A DNA stretch of 33,188 bases from positions 1-33,188 of IMG/VR virus record IMGVR_UViG_3300026292_000018, one strand, 5' to 3'. The DNA is from a virus. A program made the translations under genes and the position numbers. Numbering within the stretch: the stretch's first letter is position 1; every line of letters begins with the position of its first letter. The notes under the pieces are model-generated. The model worked only from the letters and a program-made list of their open reading frames with translations, was not told the DNA's origin and did no database searches. Positions 1-30,127 of the stretch are shown piece by piece.

Positions 1-232
1 TCATTTCAAATGACATTCTTGGTAATGTTATAGCAACCATTTTGTTTAAATCTGGTTGTTGTTCCAATCTTGCAAGAAACTTTTGAGATGGACCATATGC
101 CAATGGCACCTTCATTTCTTGTGCAGGTACACCTTCTTGAGTTTCATGTTTTACATGAATATTATTGAATAATGTACCAAAACCAATAATAGTTTTTCTG
201 ATTATTTCGTGATAATAATAAGTTCCTAACAT
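1..232 (-). CDS. 15: gp15-like tail terminator / sheath stabiliser, N-terminal part
   Basis: Only the first 77 residues are present; the frame runs off the low-coordinate edge of the window without a stop. The start (MLGTYYYHEIIRKTIIG, then FGTLFNNIHVKH) resembles the T4 gp15 N-terminus as I remember it (MFGYFYN..., then GDLFSNIQIKR), including the following basic residues and a PxxYGPSQKFLARL-like stretch. T4 gp15 forms the hexameric ring that caps the tail tube and sheath and meets the neck. The ATG overlaps the gp14 stop by one base (TAATG), so translation is probably coupled. Its place directly after gp14 is the T4 order. The assignment rests on remembered similarity plus synteny. Confidence 0.85.
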   Translation of the reverse strand, partial: MLGTYYYHEIIRKTIIGFGTLFNNIHVKHETQEGVPAQEMKVPLAYGPSQKFLARLEQQPDLNKMVAITLPRMSFEM

Positions 233-1626
233 TAGAATGTACCAAATGGATTTGATTCAGAGAAGTCTAGTATTTGATCTGCATCAAATTCTATGTCATC
301 GTTCTGTTGATATTTATCTGTAGTAGTGCTTGCTGTACCAGTTGTACTGGTTTCGTAGGTAGCACCAGACTTGGATCCAACTAGTCTTTCACCTTCATAG
401 AAGGTTCCAGTCATAATACCAACCTGGAGAATTCCAGTATCTGCATCCCAATTCTTAACCCGTCCAACAACATTGGATCTCTGCCCAGTCACTTCTTCAT
501 TAAACCAGAATGTTCCAACTCCAACAGTAGCACCAGCACCAATTGTAATTGTTGGTGGTGAGAAGAATCCTGCTCCAGCATCAAGAATGTATACATTTGA
601 TATTGGATTAGTTGATGCAGTACCAACGACAGCATGAGCAGTTGCTGGTAATTGTGGTGATAAAGATGGAAGACTTACTGCAACAGTTGGAGAAGTTGAA
701 TAACCAACACCATGATTTGTTATATTAATAGTTTGTAAACCTTTCTTACCTGCAGGAACTAATGAACATGTAGCAGCAGCACCTGTACCTCCACCACCAC
801 TAATTGTTATAATAGGTGCAGTATTTCCATATCCAACACCAGCATGTGTTAGATATATGTACTCAAGTGAAGTAACTTGATTCCTAGTTGTAAGAATACC
901 AATAGCAGTAGCTTGTGTTCCACCAGCAGGAGGTGCGGAAATACTTATTGTAGGAGTACTAGTAAATCCAGAACCATCATTATTCAAGAATACTCTCTGA
1001 ATTCCACCAGTTCCAATAACAGCAGTAGCAGTGGCAGTTGAAACATTCTGAACTAATGGGAAGTCTGTAATATGTCCAAGATCTTCAACTTTAGTATCAA
1101 TCTCCTCAACACCAGTATCAATAACCTCATCCTCATATTCAAAGAGTTCACATTGAAGTTTGTAAATATAGTTCTTACCTAACTGATAGAAAGGATCTTC
1201 ATGCTCTACAAATTTAACTTCAAATAATCTATTTCCCAATGGGAAGAATACTAAATCACCTTCTCTAGGACGGGTATCTATTATCATTTCATCATCAGGC
1301 ATAGCTTCCATGAAAGGAGCAATAAAGTCTTCAAACCTTTCTCTTGAAATACTTACTGTCAATTCATCTTTTAAAGTCATACCAAATTTTGTCATGATAT
1401 CACCTTGTCCACCATATCCATCAAAAGTTTCTACATATGCTTCTAATAAGAAGTTATCATCAAACTTAGATCTCTCAAGTTCTTCAAAAACAGTACTTCT
1501 GTTTACAATTTTTCGTGGAATATATGTTATTTCAACACCATAAATTTTCAGTTGCTCATTAATGAGCTCCTGCATTAAATTTTGTTCTCCAACAGAACCT
1601 TGTAAAAAGAAGGGGTTTAATGCCAT
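232..1626 (-). CDS. 14: gp14-like neck protein with repeat insertion
   Basis: This 464-residue protein is the head-completion/neck protein that links the portal-gp13 side to the tail. Residues 1 to about 180 are the recognisable gp14 core, starting MALNPFFLQGSVGEQNLMQE and containing a FDGYGGQGD segment and the acidic FEYEDEVIDTG stretch. T4 gp14 is about 256 residues, so this one is much longer. The extra length is four tandem beta repeats of about 45 residues (about 203 to 378). Each follows a pattern of hydrophobic strand, G-x-G-Y/F, P, then I-x-I, and ends in small residues (GSGF, GVGY, GVGY, GAGF). The C-terminus returns to unique sequence ending NPFGTF. The start overlaps the gp13 stop (TAATG). 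The core call is firm; the role of the repeats is unknown. Confidence 0.9.
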   Translation of the reverse strand: MALNPFFLQGSVGEQNLMQELINEQLKIYGVEITYIPRKIVNRSTVFEELERSKFDDNFLLEAYVETFDGYGGQGDIMTKFGMTLKDELTVSISRERFEDFIAPFMEAMPDDEMIIDTRPREGDLVFFPLGNRLFEVKFVEHEDPFYQLGKNYIYKLQCELFEYEDEVIDTGVEEIDTKVEDLGHITDFPLVQNVSTATATAVIGTGGIQRVFLNNDGSGFTSTPTISISAPPAGGTQATAIGILTTRNQVTSLEYIYLTHAGVGYGNTAPIITISGGGGTGAAATCSLVPAGKKGLQTINITNHGVGYSTSPTVAVSLPSLSPQLPATAHAVVGTASTNPISNVYILDAGAGFFSPPTITIGAGATVGVGTFWFNEEVTGQRSNVVGRVKNWDADTGILQVGIMTGTFYEGERLVGSKSGATYETSTTGTASTTTDKYQQNDDIEFDADQILDFSESNPFGTF

Positions 1627-2492
1627 TATCCTATTAAGTCAAGAGGTGGAAGTTCATATTCGGTAGACATTGATGATTTAATTTCTGCTAATTCATTAAC
1701 AGCATCATCATAAATTTCACGTCCATTAAGTTCAACTCCACCAGGTAATTTAGTTCCCTTAAACTTAATAAGATTTTGTCCCCATTGTTTTTTAATCAAT
1801 GCAGTCAAATATTTTTTAACAAAGGTATCATTATAAACGTCACCAAAAATAGTAGGATCCAATGCTCTATAACAATCAATAATAATCCAATCATCAACAT
1901 TTGCTTCACTCCAATTCATATCAATATATAATCTATTTGCTCTTTGATTAAATCTAAACTGTTTATCTGGTGTTAATAAAAAATCAATATCTTCCAAATA
2001 ACTTTTTGTCATTGCATACTGCATTAATTCCACTGAATTAAAGTAATACAAGTCATTTAAGAATAATTGATATTTAATACTAAACATTCCACCAGATATT
2101 GCATTAGTATCAAATTTAAAAATTTTATTAATACCAACTACTGCATCTGGAATTGGTATAAAGTTCTTAGTCTCATAAAAATAATGTGTTGAAGCTGTAC
2201 CGTTATTTGTTGTGCTATTTTCACCTGCTGCTGTTTTACTAGTTCTAGTAAGTGTAGTTGATGTACCTTGAGCAGTTCCTGTTGCTTCTCCCCTATCAAT
2301 ATCATCCTGACTAATTTTATATTTCAAATACATTCTTTCAACACCATCAAAGTGTCTTTCATTGAAATACTGAAAAGTATCATCTACTAGATCATCTATT
2401 TGATCATCATCAACGTTTATTTCAAGGACTGGAGCACCCAACTTCCTTTTACAGTAATCTACGAGTTCGACTCTTGTGGTTGGTTTTGCCAT
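1626..2492 (-). CDS. 13: gp13-like neck protein
   Basis: The 288-residue product matches gp13 of T4-like phages in size (T4 about 309) and in its N-terminus: TTRVELVDYCKRKLGAP, followed by acidic DDDQIDDLVDDTFQYFNERH. gp13 sits below the portal in the neck and acts with gp14 to complete the DNA-filled head before tail joining. A short low-complexity Thr/Ser/Ala-rich stretch (about residues 75 to 103, with GTAQGTSTTLTRTSKTAAG) looks like a loop insertion. The gene lies between a coiled-coil ORF and gp14, with a TAATG overlap at each end, so the three are almost certainly translated as one unit. Confidence 0.9.
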   Translation of the reverse strand: MAKPTTRVELVDYCKRKLGAPVLEINVDDDQIDDLVDDTFQYFNERHFDGVERMYLKYKISQDDIDRGEATGTAQGTSTTLTRTSKTAAGENSTTNNGTASTHYFYETKNFIPIPDAVVGINKIFKFDTNAISGGMFSIKYQLFLNDLYYFNSVELMQYAMTKSYLEDIDFLLTPDKQFRFNQRANRLYIDMNWSEANVDDWIIIDCYRALDPTIFGDVYNDTFVKKYLTALIKKQWGQNLIKFKGTKLPGGVELNGREIYDDAVNELAEIKSSMSTEYELPPLDLIG

Positions 2493-2710: not shown

Positions 2711-2722
2711 AGTTTTATATAA

Positions 2723-2748
2723 TAAAAAAGGTGGGATTCCTCCCACCT
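2723..2748 (-). terminator. Rho-independent terminator after the fibre-like gene
   Basis: On the minus strand the stem AGGTGGGA / TCCCACCT (8 perfect pairs) closes a GGAA loop and is followed by TTTTTT. It lies about 26 bases past the stop of the 507-residue gene and should end that transcript. The right-hand flank is immediately preceded by a late promoter. Confidence 0.88.
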
Positions 2749-2749
2749 A

Positions 2750-2757
2750 TATTTATA
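2750..2757 (-). promoter_or_regulatory. T4-type late promoter for 72-aa ORF, gp13, gp14, gp15
   Basis: The minus strand reads TATAAATA, the exact T4 late -10-like box recognised by the gp55/gp33/gp45-modified polymerase. Initiation a few bases downstream would fall inside the 5' arm of the adjacent terminator, so the new RNA would lack a full hairpin and would escape termination. Confidence 0.75.
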
Positions 2758-4322: not shown

Positions 4323-4330
4323 TATTTATG
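4323..4330 (-). promoter_or_regulatory. Probable late promoter (CATAAATA) for fibre-like gene
   Basis: The minus strand reads CATAAATA, one mismatch from the T4 late box, 25 bases before the ATG of the 507-residue gene in the 48-base gap after the 88-residue gene. No clear Shine-Dalgarno lies between the box and the start. Confidence 0.5.
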
Positions 4331-11100: not shown

Positions 11101-12314
11101 CCATTAACATTATTCAATCTTATTAATGTTCCAAATTCAAATGGAATATTTGAAGATGTAGTTGGATCAGTAGTTCTTGGTTTATTAACATCTAGAACTG
11201 TTGTACTAACACTCTCAATATCATATCCTCTAACATATGCCTTACCTGGAGATACACATACTGCCATCAAATCATCAGATGGTTTATTTCTTTGATCAGT
11301 CTCTTGCTCTGGTAAAAAGACACCGTTATTACCTTCACGGTCATTTAGAGTCTCTTTAACATCAATATCATATCTACCTACAGAATAGTTTCCAGATTCT
11401 TCAAAAGTTCTCTTAGCAAAATAATCTTTAATTATAGAATATTGCGTTTTATCCTGGAGTTTCTTAATTACACCATTTTCAACTCTTACTAACTCAACAA
11501 ATGTCTTATCATCATGATCAGTTAATAGTTTTTTGGATAATGTAGTAGAAATTTTTAATCTATCTGCACCTGGAGCAGCATAGTTAGAAAATCCTTTAGC
11601 ATTATCATATAATGATTCATCATCCTTTGCAGAAATAATTTCTTCACTTACACTTAATCCTACTCTATATGATGGAGTATTTGTATATGGATCAAGAAGT
11701 ATAGTGACAGTACTAACGTCTACAAAAGTTCCTCTAATAAAATATACACCTTGCCCAACAGAAGCAGCACTACCAACAGAAGTTGCATTTTCTGATATAA
11801 GAGTTGCTATAGTATCTTCTGCATTAACTGTAGTATTACCATAAGTAAATGGTTTTTCTACAATTAATGTCTCACCATCTGTAAATGGAACTACTTCATT
11901 AGTATTACCAGATCTAATATATTTTACAAATACTGTTGGATCACTAATTCCAGCAGATTCAGAAATATTTTCATATCTAGTAACAGTAGCAACTACACCA
12001 GAATCTTGTCCTCTAAGACGATTACCAATTAATTTATCACCATATACAGATACATCTACACCTAAATGATCGGAATTTAATTTAACAGCAGCAAAATTTA
12101 CATCGACGTTAATATTTCCAGGAATCACCATTGATCCCTCTTTGAAAATATGACTACCAAACGACTCTACTTGGTTTTGTAGAGTTGACTGTAAAGCAGT
12201 TAATTCCCTTGCTTGGACTGGATGCCCTGGTTTGAATAAGACCCTATAGAAATTCTTGTACTTGTCAAAGTCATCATAATAGGGACTTATATTTAAATTC
12301 GTTTTTTGTGGCAT
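5160..12314 (-). CDS. Giant DUF4815-type baseplate/fibre-associated virion protein
   Basis: The protein has 2384 residues. The N-terminus (NISPYYDDFDKYKNFYRVLF, then KPGHPVQARELTALQS) is the signature of the phage-tail DUF4815 family, which continues through a GVYFIRGTFVDV segment. Further along are two polyproline stretches (about residue 1500, VPPPPLRW; about 1557, IPPPPPEPE). They flank or precede a domain beginning DPLAQSFTVDETGAFLTAVD and ending QDLKFKLYKAEF (about 1567 to 1740), a beta-rich unit found in other marine phage structural proteins. G-x-G-Y repeats lie around 1800 to 1900. The C-terminal domain (about 2225 to 2384) carries a Ca-binding-like DTDGDGFGD loop and ends FKDLRIIALA. 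It follows gp8 by a TAATG overlap and stands where T4 has gp9 to gp12, so a peripheral baseplate or fibre-anchoring role is likely. I do not assign a T4 gene number. Confidence 0.8.
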   Translation of the reverse strand: MPQKTNLNISPYYDDFDKYKNFYRVLFKPGHPVQARELTALQSTLQNQVESFGSHIFKEGSMVIPGNINVDVNFAAVKLNSDHLGVDVSVYGDKLIGNRLRGQDSGVVATVTRYENISESAGISDPTVFVKYIRSGNTNEVVPFTDGETLIVEKPFTYGNTTVNAEDTIATLISENATSVGSAASVGQGVYFIRGTFVDVSTVTILLDPYTNTPSYRVGLSVSEEIISAKDDESLYDNAKGFSNYAAPGADRLKISTTLSKKLLTDHDDKTFVELVRVENGVIKKLQDKTQYSIIKDYFAKRTFEESGNYSVGRYDIDVKETLNDREGNNGVFLPEQETDQRNKPSDDLMAVCVSPGKAYVRGYDIESVSTTVLDVNKPRTTDPTTSSNIPFEFGTLIRLNNVNGTPWLRVGANNVVELYNDRKNSVNASNGTKIGEAKVYSFNLTDDSYENAATEWDLYVYDLQTYTNITVNTSLTSAELPANSRIKGRSSGATGFAVAAGGGGTSINITQTSGTFLNGEAITINEDETGPSRTIREITINSTKDVKSVFQNSPSLDNTIKQVFVADTVLKEQKIQGFSLTDDITIAATTGITTCAGRNWASKVKVGSVIKYQRSDKTVPTFNKVTAVASTGNTITLDDAPADVSNVCDKDSDLAYTGTFSLVEPVVQQKGGLYGVISRRLPVASINLSTSNLAVTQQITGRETDSSTGNMILPTSAVTGIQSAFFEPYDAERYSVFYNNDTIEALTSDQVTLANNGSTVNLNGLLPNQTVSGSSQVTVNTTLKKQGLTSKKKDYIRSTKVTIDKCVSLASTTTSGLTQNSFYGLRVEDEEICLNYPDPVKLVGVYEALDSNNLIELESVEFPAGLGLADAAILGETIIGADSGALAQITDRTSNTKMEIVYLNTSRFEVGELATFQESNITTTVAQVNEGTFSDVTTKFDLDKGQKQSYYDYGRLVRKGDGYKPTFKLLAIFNRYDVPANDTGDVYTVASYDAERYKSDIPIVPISNIERDTTEYTERAGGHRASNLLDFRPRVPVFSSTTTSPFAPSSRNFGTAGINPALIVAPNEASLISFQYYLERNDRLVLNKQGKFTVIEGNPAINATTPINEEEAMDIATLEIPAYVFDTDNVKVTMVDNKRYTMRDIGRLEDRIENLETITSLTMLELDTKVLQVRDADGLDRFKTGFFVDDFKDDQRFDSSSKVNVDTSTNELETPTDFESFKPELALDPSVNVETADFSADLPLLDSNVQKTGDLITLAYTEKEWINQPLASRVENVNPFNMIEWVGIIKLSPASDNWVRNIYVDGGVREIWGDRNDQFIETKKTGRAPDKYIRSRNVKFRSWGLQPYTRYYPFFDSASGIDIIPKLVEITMGSGTFQVGETVKGYIRGTHCPHVFTARIAQPGHKSGNISSPTKTYGKNPYDRSITLGTAYSASSTVLNIDITALAEEAQGKFNGYITKGMTIVGETSKAEATVSNIRLINDNWGDLEGSFFFKDPNHVPPPPLRWNTGTRTFRLTNSSTNSDPLPGSLLISRADVTYRTTGVVDTYTQTLVIVRIPPPPPEPECDPLAQSFTVDETGAFLTAVDLFFGHKDEEENVRVEIRTVELGTPTSTVVADFAQVILNPEDINVSDDASVATHIKFPSPVYLQPSTEYAIAILAPSSNFYEAWIAQMGEKTVGTSDLPDDENVIVTRQYTGGSLFKSQNGTIWSPNQFQDLKFKLYKAEFATKGTVTFYNPPFNVEDHEITTLNNNSITTLPRKLKVGIQAITTTGLINSLTVGTRVGVTTAPSANHGYIEGVGGAANTLLPSLAGIGYSTGVFNGVETYNITGNGSGLTMDGCTFGTGNAVHVHLLTVPTVATAGTGYKIGDVVGIKTSSVSKGTGTQITISALTNRDTIYLTGVQGDSIPNGDFYLNELATKFNSGNTDVTSSTVNGTYSTGNYINVKQYNHAMHSGTDVVKISGIYPSTTPTTTDAIVSISDGSSGTISVASTVGFNQFNGDYGTTGYALLNDEIIFYDSINAGTAGAGTLGIGTRGVDGSLPRTHPINSQILKYELNGMDLRRVNASHTSTRVKEPLMDSYYLDINRTGSPNDVSFTNEDAIGGHSTQASKNVQFNTIDPRMVVITPGESTSMKGRIRTVSGRSAGGFETPFLDKGFQPVEIDQLNILNSPRIVASAPNEEQYLTALPRNKSFTYQVDLSSADPNLSPVIDYANVVMITGRSRLNNPVVDYSTDGRVNELTNDPHSAIYSTKRVDLAQPASSLKVLVGAYRHESADFRLLYQLFRPDSADVEQKWELFPGYDNMRDTDGDGFGDVGFGTERLSKRSGRPDAKVVASGEGEFKEYQFTASELDTFTGFKVKIVMSGTNEAFAPRFKDLRIIALA

Positions 12315-13900
12315 TAGAATTCCAGAATAATTTTAACGTCTTCTTTTTGTCGAGAGTTTCGGGTAATCTCAGGACGGTTATCGATATAGATTATGTCACC
12401 CGTTCCTTTATTTATCTCAGGACTAGCAATACCATTTGTAAACTCAAGTCCTAATGAAATAAGTTTAGAACCACTAGGATTAGTGTTAATTCCAGTGTAG
12501 TTGCGATCTATTGTTCCCGTAAATCCATCAGAACTCAAAATGTTATTAATGGTAATACCACCTGGAGCATCAGTCTCAAATGGTAATACATTTCCTGCTG
12601 TACTAATACCAGCATGATCGGTACTATCATATGTGGTTGGATTTAGGAATAATGTCCTATCCTGTGTATATTTAAGAACTTTTGTTTCCCTATCATAAGA
12701 AGAAACATAACCCTGTGCAGTTCCTTCACTAGTCGCTTGAGTAATCTTGGAACCAATTGCAGGTACAGTTGTAGTTTCACCAGAAACTGATAAAAACTTA
12801 AATGCACCTAAAGATGAGAACTGTGGAGCAGTAAATACTGAACTAGCAGTTCCTATTGTAGTTGGGTTCTTAACTATTCCAATTTGTCCAAATTTAGTAT
12901 CAATCGGGAAATCCCTTGTTGAATCATCAAATCTGGCATAAACCAATACTTTATCAGCACCCAATTCACTGTAAATATCATTACCATGCCCCTTTGAAGG
13001 AGGAATAATAGGAATTAATTTAGCGTTAGCTGTTCCTACACCAACAGGTCTAATTGGACCTAAATCAATAGCACCAAAACTATACCCTTTACCACCAGCA
13101 GATACTACTGCATTTGTTATATTACCACTTGAGTTGACATCAACTACAACTTTACCTCCAGAACCATCACCTAAAATGTTCAATTCCCAAGAACCTGTAG
13201 AATATCCTTGTCCTCTATTATCAATATAAACCTGTTTAATTTGGTTTTCATTAATATCAGAATCTCCATTATTTCTTACTGATGTTATTTGTACATCAGT
13301 TGTACTATCCCAATTATTTGGTAATGAAATATATTCTGTAGAATCAAATTTTATAATATCACTTGGACTAACGGTAAATAGATACTTCCATGTATAACCA
13401 TCACTACCATCACCTGCTTTAGTAGGTTCTAAATCCGTAAATGTTGGTTCATTTAGAGAAGCATTACCAGTAGTTGATATTCCAGAAGCACCGTTATTAA
13501 TACAAATATAAACTTTAAATTCACTATTAATCACATAGTAGTTTGCATCATATAATCTTGATGAACCTGTAATAGGTGAAAGATTAGTCAAACTATAGTC
13601 ATGACGATACATTTCATATTTTGTTCCTCTTGCCCAAGTAATCTTTCTTGCTAACCTTCTTACATTGGCAGAAGTAACCTTCTTACCAAAAGACATGTTA
13701 TCACCAACAAATCCTTGATAATCAAAATTATCCACAGGACTAGGTGTTGCGGTATCCCAAGTACTAGCCTTACCATACCCAGTTGCTTTAGGGTTTGATA
13801 ATCCTACGAATACGAAATATGAATTAGAAGTATCTGTAACGGAGTCAACAAAGTTACTCGCATTTAATATTCTAAATTGATCTGTTACAATTGCAGCCAT
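12314..13900 (-). CDS. 8: gp8-like baseplate wedge protein
   Basis: The protein has 528 residues, against about 334 for T4 gp8. Matches to the T4 protein are clearest in the KAGDGSDGYTWKYLFTVSPS segment (T4 has GDGYVWEYLFEIPP), in the following EYI-x-x-P, and in the C-terminal IIYIDNRPEITRN ... KEDVKIILEF (T4 has MIYMENRPPI ... EEINILFTF). gp8 is a wedge component bound to gp7 and gp10 in T4. The extra length includes two G-x-G-Y type beta repeats near residues 229 and 272 (GQGYSTG and GKGYSFG). A perfect late promoter precedes the ATG by 18 bases; an AGGA lies about 13 bases upstream of the start, further than ideal. The stop overlaps the next start (TAATG). Confidence 0.88.
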   Translation of the reverse strand: MAAIVTDQFRILNASNFVDSVTDTSNSYFVFVGLSNPKATGYGKASTWDTATPSPVDNFDYQGFVGDNMSFGKKVTSANVRRLARKITWARGTKYEMYRHDYSLTNLSPITGSSRLYDANYYVINSEFKVYICINNGASGISTTGNASLNEPTFTDLEPTKAGDGSDGYTWKYLFTVSPSDIIKFDSTEYISLPNNWDSTTDVQITSVRNNGDSDINENQIKQVYIDNRGQGYSTGSWELNILGDGSGGKVVVDVNSSGNITNAVVSAGGKGYSFGAIDLGPIRPVGVGTANAKLIPIIPPSKGHGNDIYSELGADKVLVYARFDDSTRDFPIDTKFGQIGIVKNPTTIGTASSVFTAPQFSSLGAFKFLSVSGETTTVPAIGSKITQATSEGTAQGYVSSYDRETKVLKYTQDRTLFLNPTTYDSTDHAGISTAGNVLPFETDAPGGITINNILSSDGFTGTIDRNYTGINTNPSGSKLISLGLEFTNGIASPEINKGTGDIIYIDNRPEITRNSRQKEDVKIILEF

Positions 13901-29644: not shown

Positions 29645-30046
29645 TTATCTGGTTGCTTCTAATAGGAACGAAAACTCTTGGGTTGGAAACTGTTGTCCTA
29701 CAATATCAAATTCGACATACACTTCAAAAGAGTTATTATCAGGTTGTGGATCCACATATACTTGTAGGTTCTCAACTCTAGGTTCATAGTTGTCAACAAC
29801 GCTTTCTATTTCCGATTTAATAACTTCAGCAGTACCAAAGTCAACAAAGTTAAATAGACTACTGCGTACATTAGAACCTATATCGGAACTAAAGAAACGT
29901 TCGGTAGGAATAGTCTCTACAAGGTTCCTTACAGAGCGTATAATCGCACGTTCGTTCTTTAAGACAGGTATATCTTTTGTAATTGGGTGGGCATTAAAGG
30001 ATAGACTAATATCTTTAAATCCTCTAGAAACCCGTTGTACTGCCAT
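29645..30046 (-). CDS. 25: gp25-like baseplate wedge protein
   Basis: The protein has 133 residues, like T4 gp25 (132). It belongs to the GPW/gp25 family, whose fold resembles a lysozyme-like wedge core that nucleates sheath polymerisation together with gp6 and gp53. Diagnostic parts are RGFKDISLSFNAHPITKDIP, then ERAIIRSVRNLVETIPTERF with FFSSDIGSNVRSSLFNF. It is the first gene of the late block, 23 bases after a perfect late promoter. The start follows CTAATGGC, which looks like the TAATG couplings elsewhere, although here the upstream gene already ended at 30128. There is no evident Shine-Dalgarno. Confidence 0.95.
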   Translation of the reverse strand: MAVQRVSRGFKDISLSFNAHPITKDIPVLKNERAIIRSVRNLVETIPTERFFSSDIGSNVRSSLFNFVDFGTAEVIKSEIESVVDNYEPRVENLQVYVDPQPDNNSFEVYVEFDIVGQQFPTQEFSFLLEATR

Positions 30047-30069: not shown

Positions 30070-30077
30070 TATTTATA
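30070..30077 (-). promoter_or_regulatory. T4-type late promoter heading the baseplate operon
   Basis: The minus strand reads TATAAATA between the terminator of the small-gene operon and the gp25 start. Exact match to the late consensus and its position at the early/late boundary make it the likely main promoter for gp25, gp6 and gp7. Confidence 0.82.
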
Positions 30078-30095
30078 AGCGATATTTAGAAAAAC

Positions 30096-30121
30096 AAAAA
30101 AACGCCTCTTTCGAGACGCTT
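30096..30121 (-). terminator. Rho-independent terminator after the small basic gene
   Basis: On the minus strand a 9-pair stem (AAGCGTCTC with GAGGCGTTT, two G-U pairs) closes a GAAA tetraloop and runs into seven Ts. It starts seven bases after the stop of the 48-residue gene and separates that operon from the gp25 late promoter. Confidence 0.88.
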
Positions 30122-30127
30122 CGTAGG

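Follow-up and report, generated by a model that had tools for sequence, protein, structure and literature searches.

Can a late promoter be fused to a terminator in such a way that only incoming transcripts are stopped? The question is raised by a short minus-strand element in a virus record of 33,188 bases, all of which was analysed and is referred to here as the window. Among named phage records, its gp14-like protein is closest to those of AG-345-E02 (a marine virus) and of the Prochlorococcus phages P-SSM5 and P-SSM2 (approximately 56% identity), and the window is therefore taken to come from a T4-like phage of cyanophage type. The minus-strand gene order is baseplate wedge gene, 2,384-aa gene, small genes, 507-aa gene, element, 72-aa ORF, gp13 and gp14 (Table 1), and the stop codon of the 507-aa gene ends 16 nt before the promoter box. 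The window's own copy of the 72-aa ORF matched no Pfam or PHROG family; the N-terminus of this ORF is strongly conserved (MNExDYKxLIxxYQQKSFDLFSQ), and its relative in the named phage S-B43 adjoins other genes than in the window.

Table 1. Coordinates in the window of the element, its neighbouring genes and a terminator–promoter unit of the usual order
Feature	Position	Strand	Remark
T4-type late promoter box TATAAATA	2750..2757	minus	Sequence read directly
Single spacer base T	2749..2749	minus	Between box and stem
5' arm of terminator stem, AGGTGGGA	2741..2748	minus	Contains predicted +1
Predicted transcription start	2744	minus	From the T4 spacing rule
GGAA tetraloop	2737..2740	minus	
3' arm of stem, TCCCACCT	2729..2736	minus	8-bp stem with 2748-2741
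T-rich terminator tail TTTTTATT	2721..2728	minus	
Small ORF, 72 aa	2492..2710	minus	Downstream of element; coiled-coil-like by reading of sequence
gp13-like neck protein	1626..2492	minus	Head-tail adaptor Ad2, phrog_211
gp14-like neck protein	232..1626	minus	Head closure Hc2, phrog_460
Structural protein gene, 507 aa	2774..4297	minus	phrog_697; upstream; its transcripts would meet the hairpin; 'fibre-like' in the preliminary description
CATAAATA	4323..4330	minus	Candidate late box of the upstream 507-aa gene
Baseplate wedge gene	12314-13900	minus	At start of the minus-strand series leading to the element
Usual-order contrast	30070..30122	minus	Hairpin 30122-30099; boxes 30090-30083 and 30077-30070

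The box, the stem and the T-run are read directly where the preliminary description had located them (2723-2757). It also had the box preceding the stem on the minus strand, which is correct, but with a gap of two bases, and there is only one (2749). The stem is GC-rich and runs directly into the T-run, as in an intrinsic terminator; among the 11 terminator-like sites listed in the first 14 kb, where it appears once per strand, it is the richest in G-C pairs. As for a late promoter, the TATAAATA-like box closely precedes a late gene, on the coding strand. The octamer itself is not over-represented in the window (three copies, compared with 6.3 expected in shuffles). All three are on the coding (minus) strand, as are the nine copies of TATAAATA, NATAAATA and NCTAAATA taken together, five of which are intergenic. 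A complete box–hairpin–T unit is present just once in the window, and none of 150 dinucleotide-shuffled windows contains one; the unit is thus confirmed. A single sigma-70-like site (9/12, at 2706-2679) is listed on the minus strand within 100 bases of it. Far from the element, the same strand carries a perfect (12/12, 31448-31420) and a near-perfect (11/12, 31744-31716) sigma-70-type promoter match, possibly early promoters.

The preliminary description proposed looking for the same box-plus-hairpin spacing in related phages, and it is found there. Our sample consisted of 68 distinct 75-base regions upstream of relatives of the 72-aa ORF, reduced to 67 by removal of a false ORF (L072); the regions were chosen by ORF pattern, some are near copies, and the pattern missed some loci of the site, among them L236, L237, L257 and L269. 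A hairpin (the best anywhere in the gap, at least -6 kcal/mol) is present in 59/67 regions, and 58 of those 59 also carry a late box. The gap between box and GC core is 0, 1 or 2 nt in 58/58 (18, 8 and 32 cases, respectively), counted from the box nearest to the stem where a region has several; when only single-box regions are taken, the figure is 43/43. At least five T residues occupy the 8 nt after the core in 58/59 hairpin regions, compared with 5.7% of window minus-strand positions. The box-to-core distance varies little (s.d. 0.9 nt) compared with the stem-to-ATG distance (s.d. 5.3 nt). The stop-to-box distance is fairly steady too (mean 16.8, s.d. 3.9), and part of the constancy of spacing may therefore be an inherited short gap; nor are the 58 regions independent, since relatives share ancestry.

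A late box is found in 66/67 regions, in the form CTAAATA in L120 and L141. The exception is DSL-LC02 (L181), where CTAAATA overlaps the stop codon and the hairpin follows 6 nt later, so that the full stem would stay in the RNA. S-B43, which infects Synechococcus MW02, has the element, in its AATAAATA version, upstream of its 72-aa ORF relative, CDS QDH50483, and P-SSM2 has neither box nor hairpin at the corresponding place. Eight regions have no clean hairpin (the stem of L139 is mismatched, and the hairpin is wholly absent from the other 7/67), and since all eight keep the box, it presumably has a role of its own. On an ORF tree built on 76 columns and tested with the seven hairpin-free regions, L139 being left out, four changes of the no-hairpin state are asked for, of which the starred branches force only one. 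More than one late-type box is present in 16/67 regions (for example L171, L106 and L248); RNA begun at the upstream box in these would include the entire hairpin and could be terminated while still short. At the corresponding junction of T4, wac-13 (L271 23596-23611), there is a GGGGCC-GCAA-GGCCCC hairpin with neither T-run nor late box.

Conservation of the stem as a structure was assessed on an alignment of 27 distinct TATAAATA-class elements against 500 shuffles. In it, 89.4% of cells pair, five of the eight pairs are changed on both sides and there are 20 doubly changed cells. No shuffle of the 500 scores as high as the real alignment in percentage paired, in doubly changed cells or in covariation score, while weaker measures are reached more often (doubly changed pairs by 20/500, further pair types by 46/500). 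Sliding the partner by 1–3 columns lowers both the pairing and the covariation score, a comparison in which the tested structure, having come from the window, is favoured over the slid versions. The stem is thus kept by compensatory change, as would be expected of a terminator, and is very likely to be maintained as a structure. With the stem covarying and both the box-to-arm offset and the T-rich tail conserved, the layout looks selected.

Where would a transcript begin? T4 late boxes (TATAAATA) are described as spanning -13 to -6, and the Aeh1-type CTAAATA as beginning at -12, in the available text of PMC1524935. The published T4 rule places +1 at 2744, the fifth base of the 8-base 5' arm. 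Across 57 hairpins, +1 falls inside the 5' arm in 56, with 3 to 7 arm bases upstream of it, L181 again being the exception. In predicted folding, the mean energy of these 57 hairpins is -12.8 kcal/mol when whole and -3.5 kcal/mol for RNA from +1; in the class with CTAAATA or AATAAATA as its box, the stem energy for RNA from +1 is about zero, L181 excepted. The window hairpin is predicted at -13.8 kcal/mol whole compared with -6.3 for RNA from 2744, which keeps a 4-bp stem, GGGA/UCCC. The statement that a transcript started at the box would begin in the first arm therefore agrees with the T4 rule, whereas its corollary, that such a transcript could not form the hairpin, goes too far: the stem is halved and not abolished. 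This residual stem is not negligible, and we have counted it against the reading that we prefer. The exact start matters, because a shift of only 3 nt upstream in the window restores an almost complete stem (-13.4 kcal/mol).

The overlap also has a consequence for the promoter. T4 late promoters tend to have an AT-rich segment after the box, according to the portion of PMC2988020 available to us. The corresponding segment of the window, TAGGTGGG, is not AT-rich (5/8 GC), and at 60 fused sites the mean GC content of the 8 nt after the box is 0.65, with 60/60 at 0.5 or more. The same segment has a mean of 0.22 at 22 T4 boxes (2/22 at 0.5 or more), 0.35 at six S-B43 boxes (2/6) and 0.27 at 13 DSL-LC02 boxes (3/13). 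Downstream of the box, the seven hairpin-free regions (L139 left out) are AT-rich (GC 0.12-0.38), with the exception of L255 (0.75). The promoter may therefore be weak: a GC-rich segment lowers the strength to be expected of a late promoter without excluding it from that class, and it seems that the terminator arm is gained at a cost to the promoter, which is unusual and possibly weak.

In T4-like phages, a late start that removes part of a hairpin is a known device, albeit for another purpose. T4-type late promoters are described as being placed such that late RNAs lose the 5' part of a hairpin at the ribosome site of I-TevI, with similar arrangements at I-TevII, I-TevIII, segB and Aeh1 mobE (available text of PMC2988022), and at gene e the late start likewise removes the 5' part of the hairpin (available text of PMC3014915). 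Scanning for the fused order of box and hairpin returned one unit in the 149 kb of T4 that were scanned, where it immediately precedes gene 49, one in 200 kb of S-B43, at the neck site, and none in the 150 kb of DSL-LC02. The regulation of gene 49 is reportedly the subject of a paper from 1988. The closest precedents of the element are thus gene e, I-TevI, segB, Aeh1 mobE and, by our scan, gene 49, which share with it a late box so placed that only longer RNAs keep the 5' arm and form the hairpin. These precedents, together with the T4 unit at gene 49, suggest another reading of the neck site: the hairpin in read-through RNA would block translation of the small ORF, termination being secondary or absent, and RNA from the late box, devoid of the 5' arm, would be translated. 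Cover of a ribosome site is possible in the CTAAATA/AATAAATA class, where no more than 4-9 nt lie between the end of the stem or GC core and the ATG. At T4 gene e and its like, however, the hairpin hides the ribosome site, whereas the window stem ends 18 nt before the ATG, no ribosome site is seen in it and cover of one is not apparent. The T-rich tail in 58/59 hairpins is not needed by a translational hairpin, and with late structural genes on both sides there would be no obvious conflict of early and late timing for a translational switch to settle. We consider this reading unlikely; compared with the T4 ribosome-site hairpins, a hairpin with a T-run has termination as its more likely outcome. 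The literature that we searched, to which the PeSL papers and the Syn9 transcriptome did not belong and whose silence is weak evidence, contained no late promoter with its start in a terminator arm. The T4 start-in-arm geometry is known for translational hairpins, and its combination with an intrinsic terminator is a new variant.

A simpler reading would dispense with the promoter: the element would be a plain, perhaps two-way, terminator and the AT octamer no more than the A-rich flank that is common before stems. AT-rich flanks are indeed common (the 8 nt before other terminator cores are 0.71 AT), the bases after the octamer are richer in GC than is usual for a late promoter and the terminator scan calls a terminator on the opposite strand of the element as well. 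Against this, the box–hairpin pattern matched 41 stretches of the viral collection, part of them near copies of one site, compared with 0 and 7 for two permuted octamers combined with the same hairpin pattern. Of these stretches, 23 are at the homologous neck site; the 18 elsewhere, of which 15 represent one phage type with another gene order and the rest are L147, L158 and L166, were set aside. Phage DNA fetched by homology or as reference, 2.1 Mb in all, holds 100 distinct terminator contexts, 44 of them at the neck site; the box is found in 4/56 of the others, and as these four (L236, L237, L257 and L269) prove to be the same site, the count becomes 0/52. Moreover, TATAAATA is identical in 27/27 aligned elements (a class chosen by having that octamer), its place is taken in other relatives by the Aeh1-type CTAAATA or by AATAAATA, and a box is kept where the hairpin is missing. 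A terminator without a promoter is accordingly a decidedly improbable account of the site.

The fused order differs from the usual one. Terminator followed by box is present in T4, S-B43, DSL-LC02 and the window, where the unit at 30070-30122 consists of a hairpin and T-run followed by a tandem of TCTAAATA and TATAAATA, with a baseplate wedge gene (29645-30046) downstream. As in the insulated T4 promoters of the usual order (before genes 9, 36 and alt), the element holds a terminator and a late box in one short gap; in the usual order of T4-like phages, however, 3-12 nt separate the end of the stem from the box in the close cases, and up to 50 nt in others, whereas in the element the box comes first, and promoter and terminator overlap. 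An arriving polymerase must therefore cross the box before terminating, which it need not do when the terminator comes first. The preliminary description mentions neither this nor the GC-rich arm that stands in for the AT-rich segment of T4 late promoters. It could be imagined that a polymerase released at the T-run, approximately 20 bp past the start, is taken up again by the late machinery for a second start, so that initiation at the neck genes would depend on polymerases coming in from the tail operon. E. coli polymerase in vitro is described as mostly staying on DNA after intrinsic termination, diffusing in one dimension and being able to reinitiate nearby, upstream promoters included (available text of PMC6978380 and PMC6978322), and the fused order, unlike the usual one, sets termination beside the start. 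Such recycling is scarcely credible, given that the in vitro basis is E. coli polymerase and not a T4-type late polymerase, that terminator-then-box units would also allow reinitiation and that the sequence offers no direct evidence; a version in which polymerase is released some tens of bases from a box whose GC-rich melting region makes it a poor promoter for free polymerase, so that the neck operon is fed largely by polymerases finishing the tail operon and the output of low-copy neck proteins is tied to that of tail and fibre proteins, we hold to be very doubtful.

Similar units occur at other sites. A looser pattern matched at least 120 stretches. Among the matches listed, the 113 loci that had not been analysed before were examined; a clean hairpin is present in 50 of the first 74 and in 26 of the other 39 (76/113), and 23 of these 76 are of the neck type by simple motif. 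Fused units lie just after genes for gp32-like single-strand binding proteins in L341 (minus strand, box approximately 255-248) and L300 (minus strand, box approximately 2942-2935), the gp32-like gene being assigned by PHROG in both; L286 (315) and L325 (3082) share the flank of L341, and the units after gp32-like genes lead into different small ORFs. Another fused unit (L302, between 4196 and 4270, minus strand) is flanked by a gp23-like capsid gene on one side and a tail-tube-like gene on the other, and the downstream ORF starts in L354 and L365 are similar to that of L302. Terminators after genes 23 and 32 are stated to be conserved in T4-like phages (available text of PMC1524935). In a phage type represented by L152 (5666) and like contigs, TATAAATA stands just before a GGGGGG/CCCCCC stem between 180-aa and 619-aa genes, as a candidate promoter. 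Units of TATAAATA plus hairpin occur also in phages that do not necessarily rely on T4 late promoters, and many other matches, in phages of unknown or other kinds, may be unrelated to such promoters.

Composite elements of promoter and stem-loop are known in T4-like phages as PeSL (promoter-early stem-loop) cassettes (available text of PMC4503421). The neck element shares this composition but differs in carrying a late box in place of an early promoter and in its orthologous late site; a single strong copy per matching record, as counted below, may be a further difference. PeSL cassettes are said, in work of Arbiol from 2010 and Comeau from 2014, to carry early promoters and to be dense in shuffled regions. 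Model R1, built on the TATAAATA class, gave one strong match (E below 1e-5) and no second in 12/36 records, most of which are fragments, and no strong copy in T4, P-SSM2, AG-345-E02 or AG-345-F15; it misses the CTAAATA/AATAAATA class, so that S-B43 scores nothing despite its AATAAATA version. A mobile cassette is not favoured by this single strong copy per matching record, a result to which R1 contributes nothing for the class that it misses. At gathering scores, an Rfam scan of the window returned no family, and a similarity search of the 61-base element against named phages returned 33 records (best E 0.1), none covering 80%.

Taken from the sequence, the reading that we prefer, and regard as probable, is that two signals are superimposed in the element: a terminator acting on polymerase that comes in from upstream, and a late promoter whose transcripts largely escape that terminator. 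RNA from the fibre-like and upstream tail genes would hold the whole stem and be released at the T-run. The late holoenzyme would start at the box, inside the 5' arm, and make RNA with a partial stem (four of eight pairs in the window, fewer in the CTAAATA/AATAAATA class). This RNA would be only some 21-24 nt long at the T-run and, with its partial stem, would not be terminated. The element would thus form a compact boundary at which one late transcript ends and that of the small ORF, gp13 and gp14 begins. The sequences show the conservation, the fixed spacing, the covariation, the T-rich tail and the predicted loss of stem stability, and from this layout we infer promoter activity, the exact start, termination and insulation; that the neck genes are insulated from upstream late transcription, as the preliminary description held, is reasonable to suppose, albeit not as an obligatory arrangement, since 7/67 relatives have the box without the hairpin.

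If this reading is right, it provides a rule: a promoter may share bases with a terminator without silencing itself if its start sits inside the 5' arm. The GC-rich start region would predict a measurable cost in promoter strength. Diverged relatives retain the layout at a single place in the late region, and look-alikes follow gp32-like and gp23-like genes; annotation built on the usual order, terminator and then promoter, may therefore overlook operon boundaries in T4-like phages.
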